Positions 56,412-64,000 of a stretch of DNA of 64,000 nt are shown here, in pieces. The translations under genes and the position numbers were made by a program. Source of the DNA: Alphaproteobacteria bacterium. GTDB lineage: Bacteria > Pseudomonadota > Alphaproteobacteria > UBA3830. The stretch lies in contig JAGCFW010000007.1 of the NCBI GenBank assembly GCA_017649895.1, forward strand, positions 62,001-126,000, written 5' to 3'. The stretch's first letter is position 1. Every line of letters starts with the position of its first letter. The notes beneath the pieces were generated by a model. It did no database searches, had not been told where the DNA came from, and saw only the letters and a list, made by a program, of their open reading frames with translations.

Positions 56412-56487
56412 GTCCCCGTCGTCTAGAGGCCTAGGACACCGCCCTTTCACGGCGGCAACACGAGTTCGAATCTCGTCGGGGACGCCA
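56412..56487 (+). tRNA. tRNA-Glu (anticodon TTC)
   Basis: Acceptor stem GTCCCCG/CGGGGAC, anticodon arm CCGCC CTTTCAC GGCGG with anticodon TTC, discriminator G and encoded CCA. The integrase gene begins 176 bases downstream, so the 3' end is the likely attachment site of the element. Confidence 0.96.
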
Positions 56488-56613
56488 GGTTTCTGTTTTT
56501 ATCGATCTTGTTTTGTATCTTGTCGTCTATTGAGTTCCTCAAATTTCAGTATATAATAATCTTAGTTAGTTTGAGTAAGTCTTGAAAAAACTGCTCAGAG
56601 CTGAACTTAAAAA

Positions 56614-56635
56614 GGGGTACTTTAGGGGGTACTTT
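56614..56635 (+). repeat. Tandem GGGGTACTTT repeats (possible integrase arm sites)
   Basis: GGGGTACTTT occurs at 56614-56623 and 56626-56635, starting 12 bases apart, about 30 bases before the integrase start. Position beside attL suggests arm-type or excisionase binding; not proven. Confidence 0.55.
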
Positions 56636-56662
56636 TTCGATAATCAAACGGGGGTAGATATA

Positions 56663-57847
56663 ATGTTAACAGAGTTGCAATGTAAGAACTTTCAACCACA
56701 AGATAAAAGTTACAAAAAATTTGATAGTGGGGGTATGTTTTTATTGATAAAACCCAACGGGAATAAATATTGGCATCTAAAATATAAGTACGCAGGAAAA
56801 GAGAAACTAGTATCATTAGGGGTATATCCAGGGATATCTTTGAAAGAAGCTCGGAAAAAGAGAGACGAACTAAAAGTAAAAATCTCAGAAAATGTTGATC
56901 CAGTTCAAGAGAAAAGGCAAGCTAAGAACGAATTAATAGAAAATGTTGCAAATACTTTTGAAAATATCGCTTTGGAGTGGCACAAGAAAAAATGGGAAGA
57001 TTCGACGTCAAAAAATGCAAAATTGGAGCTTAGCAGATTGAGGCGAAATGCTTTTCCTGATCTTGGAGCAATACCTATCAGGAAGATAACCGCCAAGCAA
57101 TTAATTGATACTATTCAAAAGATAGAAAAACGCGGTGTTTTAACAGAAGCGAAGAAAACAAGAGGAATTATCGGACAAATTTTTCGATATGCGATAGCAA
57201 CAAAGAGAGCAGACCATGATTTAATAGCGGATACAAGAGGAGCTTATAAGCAGCCAAAAGAAAAGCATCATCCTAATTTTTCAGAGAAAGAATTAAAAGA
57301 ATTTTTGCAGAATTTCAGTAATTTTAAGGGAACGGTTACGACAAAATTAGCACTGAAGTTTTTGATACTAACATTTGTGAGAAGTGGCGAGTTGAGGGGC
57401 GCACGTTGGGAAGAGTTTAATTTTGAAAAGAACGAATGGCGCATTCCTGCCGAGCGCATGAAGATGAAGGAGCAACACATTGTGCCGTTATCAAAGCAAG
57501 CTCTCGAGGTGTTAGATGAGGCGAAAAAATACTCAAGTAACGGTGGGCAAGAAGGATTAGTTTTTCCGTCCGTTATGAATCCAACAAAAGGAATGAGCGA
57601 CAATACTCTTTCCAAGGCTTTCAGAGATCAGGGATATCAGGGAAAAGCAACGCCTCACGGAATGAGGGCAACAGCATCGACTATATTAAATGAGAACGGA
57701 TTTAAACCTGACGTTATTGAAAGGCAATTAGCTCATTGCGAGCGAAACAAAGTGCGAGCAAGTTATAATCATGCTCAGTATTTACAAGAGCGCCGAGAAA
57801 TGATGAACTGGTGGGGTGATTTTGTTGAAAAGTTGGGGGAGAAATAA
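56663..57847 (+). CDS. Tyrosine site-specific recombinase (integrase)
   Basis: This 394-residue integrase has an N-terminal arm-binding (DUF4102-like) region with LVSLGVYPGISLKEARKKRDE, a SAM-like core-binding domain and the catalytic domain: Arg in VRSGELRGARW, Lys in RMKMKEQHIVPLS, HGMR (His-x-x-Arg), His in QLAHCERN and nucleophile Tyr in ASYNHAQYL. The ATG at 56663 is chosen; a TTG upstream is possible. The stop shares one base with the next start. Confidence 0.95.
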   Translation: MLTELQCKNFQPQDKSYKKFDSGGMFLLIKPNGNKYWHLKYKYAGKEKLVSLGVYPGISLKEARKKRDELKVKISENVDPVQEKRQAKNELIENVANTFENIALEWHKKKWEDSTSKNAKLELSRLRRNAFPDLGAIPIRKITAKQLIDTIQKIEKRGVLTEAKKTRGIIGQIFRYAIATKRADHDLIADTRGAYKQPKEKHHPNFSEKELKEFLQNFSNFKGTVTTKLALKFLILTFVRSGELRGARWEEFNFEKNEWRIPAERMKMKEQHIVPLSKQALEVLDEAKKYSSNGGQEGLVFPSVMNPTKGMSDNTLSKAFRDQGYQGKATPHGMRATASTILNENGFKPDVIERQLAHCERNKVRASYNHAQYLQERREMMNWWGDFVEKLGEK

Positions 57848-59006: not shown

Positions 59007-59231
59007 ATGCCAAATATAAATTCTAAATTAAATCGATTTTTGAGACTTCCGCAAGTGTTGGAGCTAATTCCAATAGGAAGATCGACCCTATGGGCAAAAA
59101 TCAAAAGAGGAGAATTCCCGAAACCGGAGAAACTGAGTGCCAAAATAGCTGTTTGGAGAGAATCCGATATACAGGCATACATAAATGGCAATCACAATTC
59201 TTCAGAGAATGAGGAGGTGTGTAATGGCTGA
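59007..59231 (+). CDS. AlpA-family transcriptional regulator
   Basis: This 74-residue DNA-binding protein has an excisionase/MerR-like helix-turn-helix: RFLRLPQVLELIPIGRSTLWAKIKRGEFPKP, WRESDIQAYI. AlpA-type proteins control element excision and replication genes. AAAGGAGAAGG precedes the ATG. Overlaps the primase start by 8 bases. Confidence 0.9.
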   Translation: MPNINSKLNRFLRLPQVLELIPIGRSTLWAKIKRGEFPKPEKLSAKIAVWRESDIQAYINGNHNSSENEEVCNG

Positions 59232-60153
59232 TTTTAGAAATATAAAAGAGAAATATCGGGAGAATCCTCTACCTATTTTGAGGGAACTCGTTGGGCAAGG
59301 AAGAATTAAGGGTAGCGATTACGTTGCCCTCAACCCGAGGAGAAAAGATAGTAAACTGGGTTCGTTCAGAATCGACATCAACACGGGGCGATTCCATGAT
59401 TTCGCAACTGGAGACAGGGGCGGTAGTGTTATTGATCTTGCGGCTTTCGTTTATAATTGCGAAATAGTCGAGGCAGCCCAACGTCTGGAGAGTCTTTTTC
59501 CTTTCTTAGCCCGTCAACCGCTTGCGGTTCAAGGAACACTTGCTAAGAAGAAAGAAGTTGATATTCGCTATATTTGGAGAAAATCGATAATCGCTGAGCA
59601 TGATTATCTGAAAAATAAGAAGATTTTGTTGGGAAATGCTTTGGTAAACAACTACAGGGGACAAAGCCGTTTAGTAATACCACTGACAGACTTTATTCCC
59701 TCAAATCACAGTGGGTTTATCATAAAAACGCTTCAGTTTATAGATAAGGACGGAAACAAACGCTTTTCGGGATCATTCAGAGGTATGTTTCACATAGCGT
59801 CGGATTTCGATAATTCAAAGGATACTATAGTGATATGCGAAGGCTACGCGACAGCGCGAAGTATTGCCGAATCTACGGACTTTTATGTTGTAGCAGCCAT
59901 GTCGTCTTTGAATATCAAACCTGTCGCAGAGAAGATCGCGGAGCAATTTCCGAACGCGGAGATCATCATTGCGGCAGATAATGACGAGGCAGGAAGAGCT
60001 GGAGCGCAGGGAGTTTCAGATATTCCCAACGTCGTAATAGTCTACCCAACGCAAGGGTTTAAAGATTTCAACGATATGTATCAGGCAGTTGGAACGGAAA
60101 AAGTGAGGAATGTTTTTATTGGTTTACAAGTAGAGGAGAATGAAAATGTGTAA
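59224..60153 (+). CDS. TOPRIM-domain primase-like protein
   Basis: This 309-residue protein starts at ATG 59224, with GAGGAGG before it. FHDFATGDRGGSVIDLAAF is the phage/plasmid primase motif. The TOPRIM domain (about 195-295) has the catalytic Glu in VICEGYATARS and DxD in IIAADNDEAGRAG. Primase activity for the element's replication is expected. No zinc-binding CHC2 domain is visible. Confidence 0.9.
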   Translation: MADFRNIKEKYRENPLPILRELVGQGRIKGSDYVALNPRRKDSKLGSFRIDINTGRFHDFATGDRGGSVIDLAAFVYNCEIVEAAQRLESLFPFLARQPLAVQGTLAKKKEVDIRYIWRKSIIAEHDYLKNKKILLGNALVNNYRGQSRLVIPLTDFIPSNHSGFIIKTLQFIDKDGNKRFSGSFRGMFHIASDFDNSKDTIVICEGYATARSIAESTDFYVVAAMSSLNIKPVAEKIAEQFPNAEIIIAADNDEAGRAGAQGVSDIPNVVIVYPTQGFKDFNDMYQAVGTEKVRNVFIGLQVEENENV

Positions 60154-61798
60154 ATTTAAATGTACTGAAGATGGAGTGTTTTGTGGGGATAAATATCTTT
60201 GCGAATATATTGAGGCAATTGCTTTCATAAGAGATACTAAAGATGAAAACTGGAAAAGACGAATACGATTTAAGAATGCTTTTGGGGCTTTTCATGTTTT
60301 GGATATCGGAATGGAGCAATTTCGCAACACATCGGATATTTGGAAAATATTGGGGAAAGCAGGATTTGAAGTTCCGGAATTAAAAAATGAAAAGTTAGTT
60401 TTAAAATACCTGAAATATAAGACTCCCAGCCAAAGAATAACCAGCGTATCAAAAACAGGTTGGATAACAGACGGTCAATTCATTTGTCCTTCATTTTATG
60501 TAATTAAAAAGAAAACCGAAGAATGTTTTTCGTTGGATCAAAAAGTAAAGAATTGCGGATTTAAAATAAAAGGAGAACTCAAAGAATGGCAAGACAATAT
60601 TTGTAAGTATTGTAAAGGCAATGACATTCTTACTTTAGCTTTATGTGTTGCTTTTTCAGGAATTCTTCTGAAATTTACGAATCAATCCTGCACGGTATTA
60701 CATCTTGTGGGAAAGAGTTCGATAGGAAAAACATCAGCACTGGCAGTTGCGGCTTCCATTTGGGGAGATTCCGGACAATTTATAATGCAGTGGAGAGTTA
60801 CGTCTAATGCGATTGAAACCCTAGCGGAATCTCACAACAGCTGTTTGTTGATTCTCGACGAATTATCTCAAATCAGCGCGAGAGATGCCGGAAATATGAT
60901 CTATACGTTGGGCAATGCCAAAGGAAAGGCACGGTTAAATTCTGAGGCTGAACAAAGAGAAATCAAGCAGTGGCAGATTTCTATTCTCAGCTCGGGTGAG
61001 ATCGGAATTGGCGACAAAATTTCGGAGAATAACGAGAAAGCCAAGGCCGGTCAACTCGTAAGGTTTATAGATATTGAAGCAGAAGTTCCGAACGGATTCG
61101 GCATCTATAATAATCTTCACGGGTTCAATGACGGAGCTGAATTGTCCAACCTTCTGAAGGAAAATTGTAGAAAATATCACGGAGTTCCTGCGAAAATCTT
61201 TGCGGAGTTTTTGATTAAAGAAAACAATTTTGAAAGCTCGATTAAACATCTCTATGGAATTGCGCAACGGAATATATATCAAAAATTCGAATTAGAAAAA
61301 GCCAACGGTCAGGTCAAGCGAGTAGCGGATGTTTTCTCTCTTTATCTTCTGGCAGGAACACTTGCCCAACGTTTCGGAATAATAACTTTTGATGTTACAA
61401 AAAGTATCCATAACATATTCGAACGTTGGGTTAACGATCGAGGGAACAAGACACTTTCTATGGAAGAAAAAGATATTGTAGATGATGTTATGTCTTTTCT
61501 GATGCAACATGAAGCAAGATTCGGACGAATTAGCTTTGTAGGAGGTAGCTACGTAAAAGAAGAGAAAATTATAAACAATTGTCTCGGCAGAGTTGAAGAT
61601 AGAGATAATCGGCGCATTTATTATATAATACCGAAGTTGTTTCGAGATGAAATTTGTAAAGGTAAGAATGTGAAACTCTACAGAAAAGTCTTGAAGCAAA
61701 AAGGAATATTGCTCACTTACGATGATGGCTCAGATAGACGCTACACAATTAACGGAGAAAGAAGAAAAATGACCACTCTAGCGTTTACAAAATCCTGA
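60140..61798 (+). CDS. DUF927-domain P-loop helicase/ATPase
   Basis: This 552-residue protein has an N-terminal region and a DUF927 ATPase with Walker A GKSSIGKTSA and Walker B LLILDELSQ. GDSGQFIMQWRVTSNAIE and KGKARLNSEAEQREIKQWQ are family features. In phage-like elements DUF927 proteins pair with a primase as replicative helicase. Overlaps the primase gene by 14 bases. The CGGACA repeat block follows directly. Confidence 0.9.
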   Translation: MKMCKFKCTEDGVFCGDKYLCEYIEAIAFIRDTKDENWKRRIRFKNAFGAFHVLDIGMEQFRNTSDIWKILGKAGFEVPELKNEKLVLKYLKYKTPSQRITSVSKTGWITDGQFICPSFYVIKKKTEECFSLDQKVKNCGFKIKGELKEWQDNICKYCKGNDILTLALCVAFSGILLKFTNQSCTVLHLVGKSSIGKTSALAVAASIWGDSGQFIMQWRVTSNAIETLAESHNSCLLILDELSQISARDAGNMIYTLGNAKGKARLNSEAEQREIKQWQISILSSGEIGIGDKISENNEKAKAGQLVRFIDIEAEVPNGFGIYNNLHGFNDGAELSNLLKENCRKYHGVPAKIFAEFLIKENNFESSIKHLYGIAQRNIYQKFELEKANGQVKRVADVFSLYLLAGTLAQRFGIITFDVTKSIHNIFERWVNDRGNKTLSMEEKDIVDDVMSFLMQHEARFGRISFVGGSYVKEEKIINNCLGRVEDRDNRRIYYIIPKLFRDEICKGKNVKLYRKVLKQKGILLTYDDGSDRRYTINGERRKMTTLAFTKS

Positions 61799-61982: not shown

Positions 61983-62326
61983 AGGCGATTTTTTAGGGTT
62001 TTCGTTTTTATGAAAGATAAAAAAACTATTAAAGACAAAAAACATAGAATGTTAATAAAATATTAATAAATATTAACGATGACTGTAGACAAATTCGATA
62101 TATAATGTTACGTTACAAAAACTGTTTTTTTCTGATCTTTAGTTTAGTGCTGAGTTTGATGCTTGAAAAACGGTTTCAGATAGGAAGTGCATTATAAATT
62201 ATACACAGTTGTAATACCTATAGACGGTTGAAAACGAAAGGAGGCGATAAAGGAGAAGAGTCATTAATATTTTAGTAAAAACTGAAAAATATATAGATTT
62301 ATAATTTTATTTGAGGAGAATTAACT
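61983..62326 (+). other. Non-coding region upstream of the peptide locus
   Basis: AT-rich DNA with a TTAA-N7-TTAA site at 62052-62066. A 30-codon hydrophobic frame (62105-62197) lacks a ribosome binding site and is not supported. An AAAGGAGGCGATAAAGGAG stretch lies about 80 bases before the next gene without a start codon at proper distance. Confidence 0.5.
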
Positions 62327-62668
62327 ATGAAAAAGGTTGTAGTAGGCGCTGCGGCGTGTGTATGTTGTGTAGCAAATGGGGAGTTTGTGCATGAACTAAA
62401 TTCTGAGGCTAATGACAGATTAGCGTTAACTTGTATCAATAAAGAAAGAGATCATTGTCGTTCCTTACAAAAAAACGTCGATGATACAACAAACGCAGAC
62501 ATATTAAATCTTATAGAGGAGCAATTTCCTTTGTTATTTCAAATAGATTCTATCAATTGTGATGAACAAAAAGAAATTGTCAGTATTTTGAAGGATAGAT
62601 GGCAGTCCCAGGATTATACCTATGAGGATGAAAACGGTTGGAAGGCGACGTGGTCAAAATCTATATAA
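62327..62668 (+). CDS. Candidate radical-SAM-modified precursor peptide (Sec-exported)
   Basis: This 113-residue protein begins with a signal-peptide-like segment (MKKVVVGAAACVCCVANG) with cleavage about residue 18. It ends with an aromatic tail: Trp92, Tyr97, Tyr99, Trp105 and Trp109, including YED, WKA and WSK triads. Three-residue cyclophane RiPPs are made at aromatic-x-x triads of this kind by SPASM maturases like the next gene. That this is the substrate is inferred from position and composition. GAGGAG lies eight bases upstream. I do not recognise a family. Confidence 0.68.
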   Translation: MKKVVVGAAACVCCVANGEFVHELNSEANDRLALTCINKERDHCRSLQKNVDDTTNADILNLIEEQFPLLFQIDSINCDEQKEIVSILKDRWQSQDYTYEDENGWKATWSKSI

Positions 62669-62681
62669 TGGTAAAGAATTC

Positions 62682-62705
62682 AGAGGAGTAGAGGCATACT
62701 CCTCT
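62682..62705 (+). terminator. Hairpin between precursor and maturase genes
   Basis: AGAGGAGTA (62682-62690) pairs perfectly with TACTCCTCT (62697-62705) around a six-base loop, followed by ACTTTT. It could act as a partial terminator, raising precursor over enzyme. Confidence 0.68.
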
Positions 62706-62779
62706 ACTTTTCAAACAAAAAAACAATAAAACTATGAATATGATAGAGTTAGAGTTTGTTTTTGTAAAAAGAGAACAAA

Positions 62780-63934
62780 ATGAGATCAAATTTTAACATA
62801 ATTTTAAAGATTTCTGACAGTTGCCCCTTAGCTTGTGATTATTGCTATTACTTCAGAAATATAGTCTCAGAACATAAAAAACGCCCATTAAAAATATCAA
62901 TTAGGACTGTACAAGCAATCTGCAAAAGGATCAACGAATATAGTAAGTCTGTCGATATAAGTAAGGTGTTTTTTTCTCTACATGGGGGGGAGCCATTAAC
63001 TGTATGGAAACGATATTTTTGCAAAATTTGCGATGAATTAGAAAGAAATTTAACGGTCCCATACAAATTATTATTGCAGAGTAATGGTGTGTTGATCGAT
63101 GAAGAATGGATTAACATCTTAAAAAAATACAACGTTCAATTGGGAATTAGTATTGACGGACCAGAAAAGTATCAAAACGTTCACAGAAAATTAAAAAATG
63201 GAAAAGGCAGTTTCGAAATAGTTAATAGTAACATTCTGAAATGCATATCGAATGGTCTCAAACCAGGAGTATTATTAGTAATTGATCCCTATTTTAATCC
63301 AGAAGAGATTTTTAAATATGTTGTAGATGATTTAACAATAGAAGGCATGGATATCCTGATAAGAGACTATACTGTCGATACGATACCATCAGAACAATAC
63401 GTTCAAGATGTTAGCTCTTGTTTAAGTCGATGGATGGATTTGTGGTTGAACCATAATAATCCTAATTTGCATATTCGCTTGTTTGATAGCATGTTGCGAG
63501 TACTGCAGGGAAAGGGATCCTGTTTGGAATTTGGATTTAGGAATAATATCAATTCTATACCGACAGTTACTATATACACTGATGGAGAAATTTCTCCAGC
63601 TGATGAGTTGTCTTCAATAAGCAGTGACTTCATGAATATACAAAAAAATGTACATCAGAATAGTTTTGAAGAAGTATTTAAATTAAAAAAATTTGAGAAA
63701 ATTCGAGTTGCGTGTACTCAAGTTGCGGAAGAGTGTAAAGATTGCTATCTTCAAAACGTTTGCTGCGGAGGAGCTGGGTTATTGGAACGATATAGTTCTA
63801 AAAAAGGCTTTAGAAACAGAGGAGTATATTGTAAAGTTTGGAAAGACTTATTTACAAAGCTAATTGAAAAACTGTTACTTTCAGGATATTCCAGGGATAA
63901 GTTAATTAAAGTACTGCAGGGAATAAAATTGTGA
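62780..63934 (+). CDS. Radical SAM/SPASM peptide maturase (cyclophane-forming type)
   Basis: This 384-residue enzyme has the radical SAM cluster CPLACDYCYY (Cys15, Cys19, Cys22), SLHGGEPL and GISIDGPEKYQNVHR. The SPASM region has Cys312, Cys319, Cys322, Cys328 and Cys351 in CKDCYLQNVCCGG ... RYSSKKGFRNRGVYC, matching the C-terminal pattern of FxsB/XyeB/GrrM maturases that install C-C cross-links in peptides. GEISPADEL precedes it, as in that group. AAGAGAAC precedes the ATG. The last four bases overlap the next gene (GTGA). The substrate is inferred to be the gene just upstream. Confidence 0.88.
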   Translation: MRSNFNIILKISDSCPLACDYCYYFRNIVSEHKKRPLKISIRTVQAICKRINEYSKSVDISKVFFSLHGGEPLTVWKRYFCKICDELERNLTVPYKLLLQSNGVLIDEEWINILKKYNVQLGISIDGPEKYQNVHRKLKNGKGSFEIVNSNILKCISNGLKPGVLLVIDPYFNPEEIFKYVVDDLTIEGMDILIRDYTVDTIPSEQYVQDVSSCLSRWMDLWLNHNNPNLHIRLFDSMLRVLQGKGSCLEFGFRNNINSIPTVTIYTDGEISPADELSSISSDFMNIQKNVHQNSFEEVFKLKKFEKIRVACTQVAEECKDCYLQNVCCGGAGLLERYSSKKGFRNRGVYCKVWKDLFTKLIEKLLLSGYSRDKLIKVLQGIKL

Positions 63935-64000
63935 TCAGGCTGATTATAAGACAGTTTTTTGGTTTATGTGTGTTGTGTTTATCCGTTGAAGCAAAGATAT
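63931..64000 (+). CDS. N-terminus of a secreted protein coupled to the maturase
   Basis: A GTG at 63931 overlaps the maturase stop (GTGA), giving MIRLIIRQFFGLCVLCLSVEAKI, which looks like a Sec signal peptide with cleavage after VEA. Only 23 residues fit in the window. It is probably the next member of the peptide-modification locus, such as a periplasmic peptidase, transporter or receptor; the family cannot be told. Confidence 0.6.
   Translation, partial: MIRLIIRQFFGLCVLCLSVEAKI

Follow-up and report, generated by a model that had tools for sequence, protein, structure and literature searches.

The stretch of DNA analysed here (the window) comprises 64,000 nucleotides (G000:C3:62001-126000) of a 1.1-Mb, 79%-complete source assembly, and its contig goes on for 3,528 bases past the window end. 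A three-gene operon on the forward strand reaches the end of the window. Its first gene encodes a candidate RiPP precursor of 113 residues (62327..62668), an ORF with a ribosome-binding site (GAGGAG ahead of the ATG) and a syntenic 122-aa ortholog in a second species. The precursor gene is followed by an intergenic hairpin (62683..62712, forward strand), by the gene of a 384-residue radical SAM/SPASM enzyme (62780..63934) and by the gene of an exported HExxH protein that starts at 63931 in a GTGA overlap. The initial annotation had located the three reading frames correctly, including the coupling of the second exported protein to the enzyme gene. Extension of the sequence beyond position 64000 brought out what it had missed, namely that this second exported protein (63931..64000 in the window) is a HExxH peptidase-like protein of 429 residues. 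Its gene continues to C3:127220 (L004 5220) and ends 1,220 bases past the window.

The hairpin noted earlier in the gap between the precursor and enzyme genes was borne out by folding: it has a 12-bp stem and an energy of -16.9 kcal/mol (z -4.3), and none of 200 shuffled sequences folded as well. G049 (z -2.7) and G036 (z -2.6) have hairpins at the corresponding position, and the precursor/enzyme gap holds one in all three species. It is possibly a partial terminator or a processing site. An AT-rich stretch of 80 bp upstream of the operon (window positions 62013-62093) terminates at a promoter-like site (62079-62106) and has two further copies in the genome with 83-88% identity (G000:C18:16043-16123, L002; C12:37325-37405, L003).

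All three genes were found in G049, a genome of the same genus, with their order kept, and the operon is therefore not a chance arrangement. Identities to the G049 proteins are 57% for the enzyme, 49% for the HExxH protein and 27% for the precursor. G036 has a broken enzyme gene, after which come the genes of the HExxH protein, an ABC transporter and an HlyD protein; the HExxH, ABC and HlyD genes were also found at a contig edge in G038. A candidate precursor of 72 aa in G036 (C54; L016 8648-8866) lacks a signal peptide and has DWTMKHPGWHSKDIPWMD close to its end. It stands before a second broken copy of the enzyme gene, on a contig that differs from the one with the exporter genes. The named relatives in which these genes occur are MAGs with the label Holosporaceae or Alphaproteobacteria; the Holosporales live in obligate association with eukaryotes, mostly protists (PMC11909080).

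A precursor profile run against 50 genomes of the order gave convincing E-values for the two operon copies only, both of them beside a radical SAM gene. No convincing homologue was thus seen away from such a gene, in keeping with the substrate role proposed for this protein in the initial annotation. Profiles of the HExxH protein and the enzyme recovered no close relative outside the order among 385 genomes of the class. The viral contigs searched held no relatives of either protein and the plasmids searched held none of the HExxH protein.

The tRNA-Glu island

The operon sits at the end of an island that begins at a tRNA-Glu gene (56412..56487, forward strand, ARAGORN), the probable attachment site. 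A 15-bp repeat, CGTCGGGGACGCCAG, has its left copy at the tRNA-Glu 3' end (56474..56488, forward strand) and an exact right copy 0.7 kb past the operon (L004 5932-5946; C3:127932-127946), which points to an element of about 9.5 kb. Its forward-strand genes include those of a tyrosine integrase (56582..57847; Phage_integrase, 2.7e-29), an AlpA-type regulator (59007..59231; Phage_AlpA, 2.1e-11), a Toprim primase-like protein (59185..60153; Toprim_3, 4.4e-11) and a DUF927 replicative helicase (60140..61798; DUF927, 3.2e-59). A search for an unoccupied attachment site showed that two same-genus genomes keep the left flank, including the tRNA-Glu gene, and do not keep the right flank, so the ends of the island are given by the 15-bp repeat alone.

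Relatives of the DUF927 helicase were observed in 27 of 50 genomes of the order, and a G044 contig with such a helicase also holds a remnant of a HExxH gene. The source genome has two more helicase copies (G000:C4:68000-82000, L140; C18:56000-72000, L141). Their surroundings are also island-like, but the neighbouring genes differ and the radical SAM operon is absent.

The radical SAM/SPASM enzyme and its predicted substrate

The enzyme has a CxxxCxxC motif at residues 15-22 and a C-terminal set of SPASM cysteines. Seven cysteines were invariant in 27 relatives (15, 19, 22, 319, 322, 328 and 351). Five SPASM cysteines had been counted initially, of which C319, C322, C328 and C351 belong to this invariant set while C329 is private to the enzyme. 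The enzyme scored below every curated family cut-off: 232.8 bits against 445 for the NCBIfam YhhB equivalog (NF041707), 209.7 against 450 for the XyeB equivalog (TIGR04496), 205.5 against 370 for the FxsB subfamily (TIGR04269) and 115.5 against 310 for GrrM (TIGR04261). The NCBIfam scores for sulfatase maturase (125 bits) and DynA (118 bits) were also under the curated cut-offs. Among solved structures, the best match was to the radical SAM domain of ChlB, a cyclophane synthase (3.7e-40).

In two maximum-likelihood trees, the Holosporaceae enzyme pair was placed as sister of the XyeB clade with a support of 93/84 and then, with more rows, of 97/94. GrrM forms a separate and distant clade (100/100), and the stem of our enzyme is long (1.1-1.4 changes per site). 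Judged from these sequence comparisons, the enzyme belongs among the triceptide maturases, as a deeply branching sister to the XyeB enzymes for three-residue cyclophanes, with the crosslinking itself predicted. The initial placement of the enzyme among cyclophane maturases thus holds, and the operon very probably makes a crosslinked peptide.

The precursor, for which no family had been recognised, matched nothing in Pfam and NCBIfam. The XyeA-type precursor model TIGR04495 also gave no match next to the enzyme, and the common feature is the C-terminal W-x-K-x-I pattern only. Both precursor orthologs begin with MKK and a hydrophobic stretch (62327..62380 here, forward strand), with possible cut sites ANG↓E here, where cleavage is likely, and SSG↓D in the ortholog. 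The mean hydropathy of the signal is 2.79 (2.49 in the ortholog), which is in the range of the lipoproteins and membrane proteins of the window. From the hydropathy and the cleavage motif, the two precursors are likely to carry a Sec-type signal peptide.

Similarity between the two precursors is low outside the two ends, which are kept. The conserved tail reads GWKxT(I)WxKSI, being GWKATWSKSI here (62636..62665, forward strand) and GWKKTIWGKSIHW in the ortholog, and this is the stretch best conserved between them. The aromatic-x-x triads in the tail are W-K-A and W-S-K here and W-K-K and W-G-K in the ortholog; two of the three triads proposed initially therefore fall in the conserved stretch, whereas the ortholog does not conserve the third, YED. 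Both precursors keep a C-terminal W-x-K-S-I, which resembles RWDKAI of XyeA. XyeA ends in GGWVNVFARWDKAI and the candidate precursors adjoining two other XyeB enzymes end in DWKKSF and KWCLRF, such that a Trp at -5 recurs among the precursors of XyeB-type enzymes. Because the tail is conserved and the Trp at -5 is recurrent, the last ten residues were taken as the predicted core.

The exported HExxH protein and the third position of related operons

The HExxH protein had no match in Pfam or NCBIfam, and its profile found nothing among the sequences of solved structures. The four homologs whose N-terminus is covered all have a signal peptide ending in V/I-x-A (VEA↓K, INA↓Q, VNA↓S and INA↓I), and all four have HEFSH and a [ND]-E glutamate motif. 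In the window's protein, the motif is HEFSHAM followed by W-x-L-N-E-A-L-A, and the latter segment reads SWCLDETMA in G021. A model of the G049 catalytic domain, made from two sequences (pLDDT 72), matched M1 (Z 8.6), M61 (7.2), thermolysin (7.2) and EryP (6.3) structures, and the first 49 VIA rows for this model were all metallopeptidases. The aKG-HExxH oxygenase is missing from this domain-alone list, an absence that excludes nothing. Foldseek with the full-length model gave meaningless matches only, and the catalytic domain alone did better (VIA). The HEFSH...WxLNEALA motif and the predicted fold would place the protein with the M1/M61/thermolysin (M4)-type zinc peptidases, the third metal ligand being assigned from the sequence.

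The HExxH homolog in G021 (C58; L083 1658-3909) lies between the gene of a transposase-like nuclease and that of an exported Sir2-domain protein. We considered whether the radical SAM enzyme could act on GYWYAK, a conserved segment within the HExxH protein, and set this aside: YWYAK is kept in G021, where the 5.6-kb contig has no radical SAM gene, and the segment is also predicted to be a helix. A distant homolog in another family of the class (G345:C113; L088 5532-6623) has lost the HExxH residues (QICHR).

We surveyed the third gene in a small, hand-picked set of loci. In Xenorhabdus, the exported aspartic protease XyeC directly follows the enzyme gene, while XyeB-clade enzymes are followed by an exported M61 peptidase in G687 and by an exported HExxH...WLSEGG protein in Pseudoalteromonas. 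An exported S9 peptidase follows the enzyme in G318, where the enzyme was recovered by profile and not placed in the tree. A cytosolic aKG-HExxH protein follows the enzyme in G615 and, by motif, in G703, and some XyeB-clade operons have no such gene. The family of our HExxH protein had no sequence match to the Rhizobium aKG-HExxH protein or to the Pseudoalteromonas exported HExxH protein; the common operon position of these HExxH proteins is therefore not shown to be homology. That this position is taken by differing exported peptidases suggests a shared task, trimming after export. With unrelated exported peptidases in this place in other XyeB-clade operons, trimming of the leader by the third protein is likely. 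An exported peptidase would then be a recurrent and exchangeable part of XyeB-type operons, which would help in predicting the start of the mature peptide. In L154 and L155 (G123 and G335), XyeB-like enzymes follow precursors with GGNFVSAP repeats and precede a 250-aa protein, which had no Pfam match in the L154 copy tested.

Proposed pathway and known systems

The reading that we favour, and hold to be somewhat better than an even bet, is that a triceptide-type RiPP operon is the cargo of a small tRNA-Glu island, with crosslinking in the cytosol, export by Sec and trimming by the HExxH protein in the periplasm. Owing to the hairpin, more precursor than enzyme would be translated. The radical SAM enzyme would, in the cytosol, join aromatic residues of GWKATWSKSI to the side chain at +2 before export, where W109-K111 is the most likely crosslink site and W105-A107 perhaps another. 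The precursor, whose signal can be seen in the sequence, would then be exported by Sec and signal peptidase would take off about 18 residues. The co-translated HExxH protein, which has its own signal peptide, would cut off what is left of the leader once in the periplasm, releasing a short crosslinked peptide. A bacteriocin-like or host-directed role for this peptide is a guess. Besides the synteny, the enzyme phylogeny, the shared C-terminal pattern, the HExxH motif and fold, and the exported peptidases of related operons, we count in favour of this pathway the signal-less candidate precursor of G036 together with the ABC exporter and HlyD genes after its HExxH gene. Counted against it are the low similarity of the precursors between their ends, the lack of a Pfam or NCBIfam match for the HExxH family, the XyeB-clade operons with an aKG-HExxH protein or with no exported peptidase, and the location of the G036 candidate precursor and exporter genes on different contigs.

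For a RiPP, the precursor is rather long, and the steps seen so far leave the middle region between signal and core in place. GrrA-like precursors are likewise about 95-140 aa. The product might therefore stay large, as a crosslinked periplasmic or secreted protein of 95 residues with a stabilised tail, and the HExxH protein would act elsewhere or be a partner. We regard this as improbable but the strongest of the alternatives, as the middle is poorly conserved at an overall identity of 27% while the ends are kept, which fits a leader and a core. It is less probable that the enzyme performs another chemistry on the tail, such as epimerisation or formation of a thioether or a darobactin-like ether bridge. 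Its scores under every curated cut-off and its long stem leave room for this, as does the resemblance of the tail to WSKSF of darobactin (PMC9055067), but its nearest curated families are all cyclophane-forming, the DarE model gave only 78 bits against a cut-off of 650, and the two Trp residues lie four residues apart rather than two.

A slightly smaller chance still is given to the third protein being an aKG-HExxH-type peptide hydroxylase that further oxidises the crosslinked core instead of a protease. In related operons, genes of this type come immediately after that of the radical SAM enzyme, and the ChlB HExxH oxygenase domain was among the matches of the full-length model (Z 6.1). However, the third protein starts with a signal peptide, a feature missing from the aKG-HExxH proteins of related operons, and those proteins match TIGR04267, to which our protein had no match at E up to 1 (0.1 for its homologs). 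In addition, it has LNEALA where aKG-HExxH enzymes have an SP(W/L)...HA(F/C) segment, and hhalign gave no match. That the enzyme is an anaerobic sulfatase maturase or another non-RiPP SPASM enzyme is hardly credible, as the 125-bit match to sulfatase maturase models is outweighed by its separation from these maturases in both trees (100/100 and 99/98) and by the exported small protein that precedes the enzyme gene in both species.

We tentatively suggest, at somewhat less than even odds, a separate Holosporaceae triceptide lineage with a Sec-signal leader and an exported gluzincin of a new family. Cytosolic crosslinking and periplasmic trimming would here be split by the general secretion machinery, and a single family would use Sec for export in G000 and G049 but ABC/HlyD in G036. 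If the favoured pathway is right, three genes would suffice for making a crosslinked peptide, with no exporter of their own. The RiPP operon would then occur in reduced genomes, in an order whose members are known to depend on eukaryotes for life.

XyeA/XyeB of Xenorhabdus (TIGR04495/TIGR04496) is similar to our system in its sister enzyme, in the small precursor directly upstream, in the C-terminal Trp at -5 with W-x-K-x-I and in the exported peptidase at the third position, there the signal-bearing aspartic protease XyeC. XyeA has a double-Gly leader and its operon has HlyD and a peptidase-domain ABC exporter, whereas our operon lacks an exporter, its precursor has a predicted Sec-type signal and its third protein resembles a metallopeptidase. 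GrrA/GrrM (OscA/OscB; TIGR04260/TIGR04261) shares the precursor length of ~95-140 aa, the C-terminal triad region and, as predicted for our precursor, the Sec-type signal; GrrA has many repeated triads rather than two and GrrM belongs to the distant clade. Darobactin (DarA/DarE), with a W-to-K carbon bond (PMC9055067), has a core end W-S-K-S-F close to our W-S-K-S-I, but our tail lacks the W-x-W for the ether and the exporter logic differs.

M1-type zinc peptidases such as AplP are known to remove RiPP leaders (PMC10885120). The lanthipeptide leader peptidases AplP and EryP are of this type, and EryP is the structure matched by the G049 model. Our protein differs from them in having no Pfam M1 sequence match, in being exported and in its location in a radical SAM operon. 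In the MNIO-modified bufferins and oxazolins, too, a Sec signal stands where a classical leader would be expected, and they pose the same problem of modification before export, with another enzyme class and chemistry (PMC12452194). Sec export had been called unusual in the initial annotation, and a survey agrees that Sec signals are rare among bacterial RiPPs, though documented for some, with the timing of modification and export unexplained (PMC12452194). It is not a new kind of leader, however, as the precursors adjoining curated GrrM enzymes of Alphaproteobacteria also have Sec-type signals ahead of triad-rich C-terminal tails. Our operon, if read correctly, would be a tractable case for the bufferin question of how a Sec-signal precursor is modified before it leaves the cytosol. 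A Sec-type leader with a XyeB-type enzyme and an exported gluzincin was not found described in the literature searched. Each part has known relatives, and what seems to be new is their combination, in reduced Holosporaceae genomes, as the cargo of an AlpA/primase/DUF927 island at tRNA-Glu.
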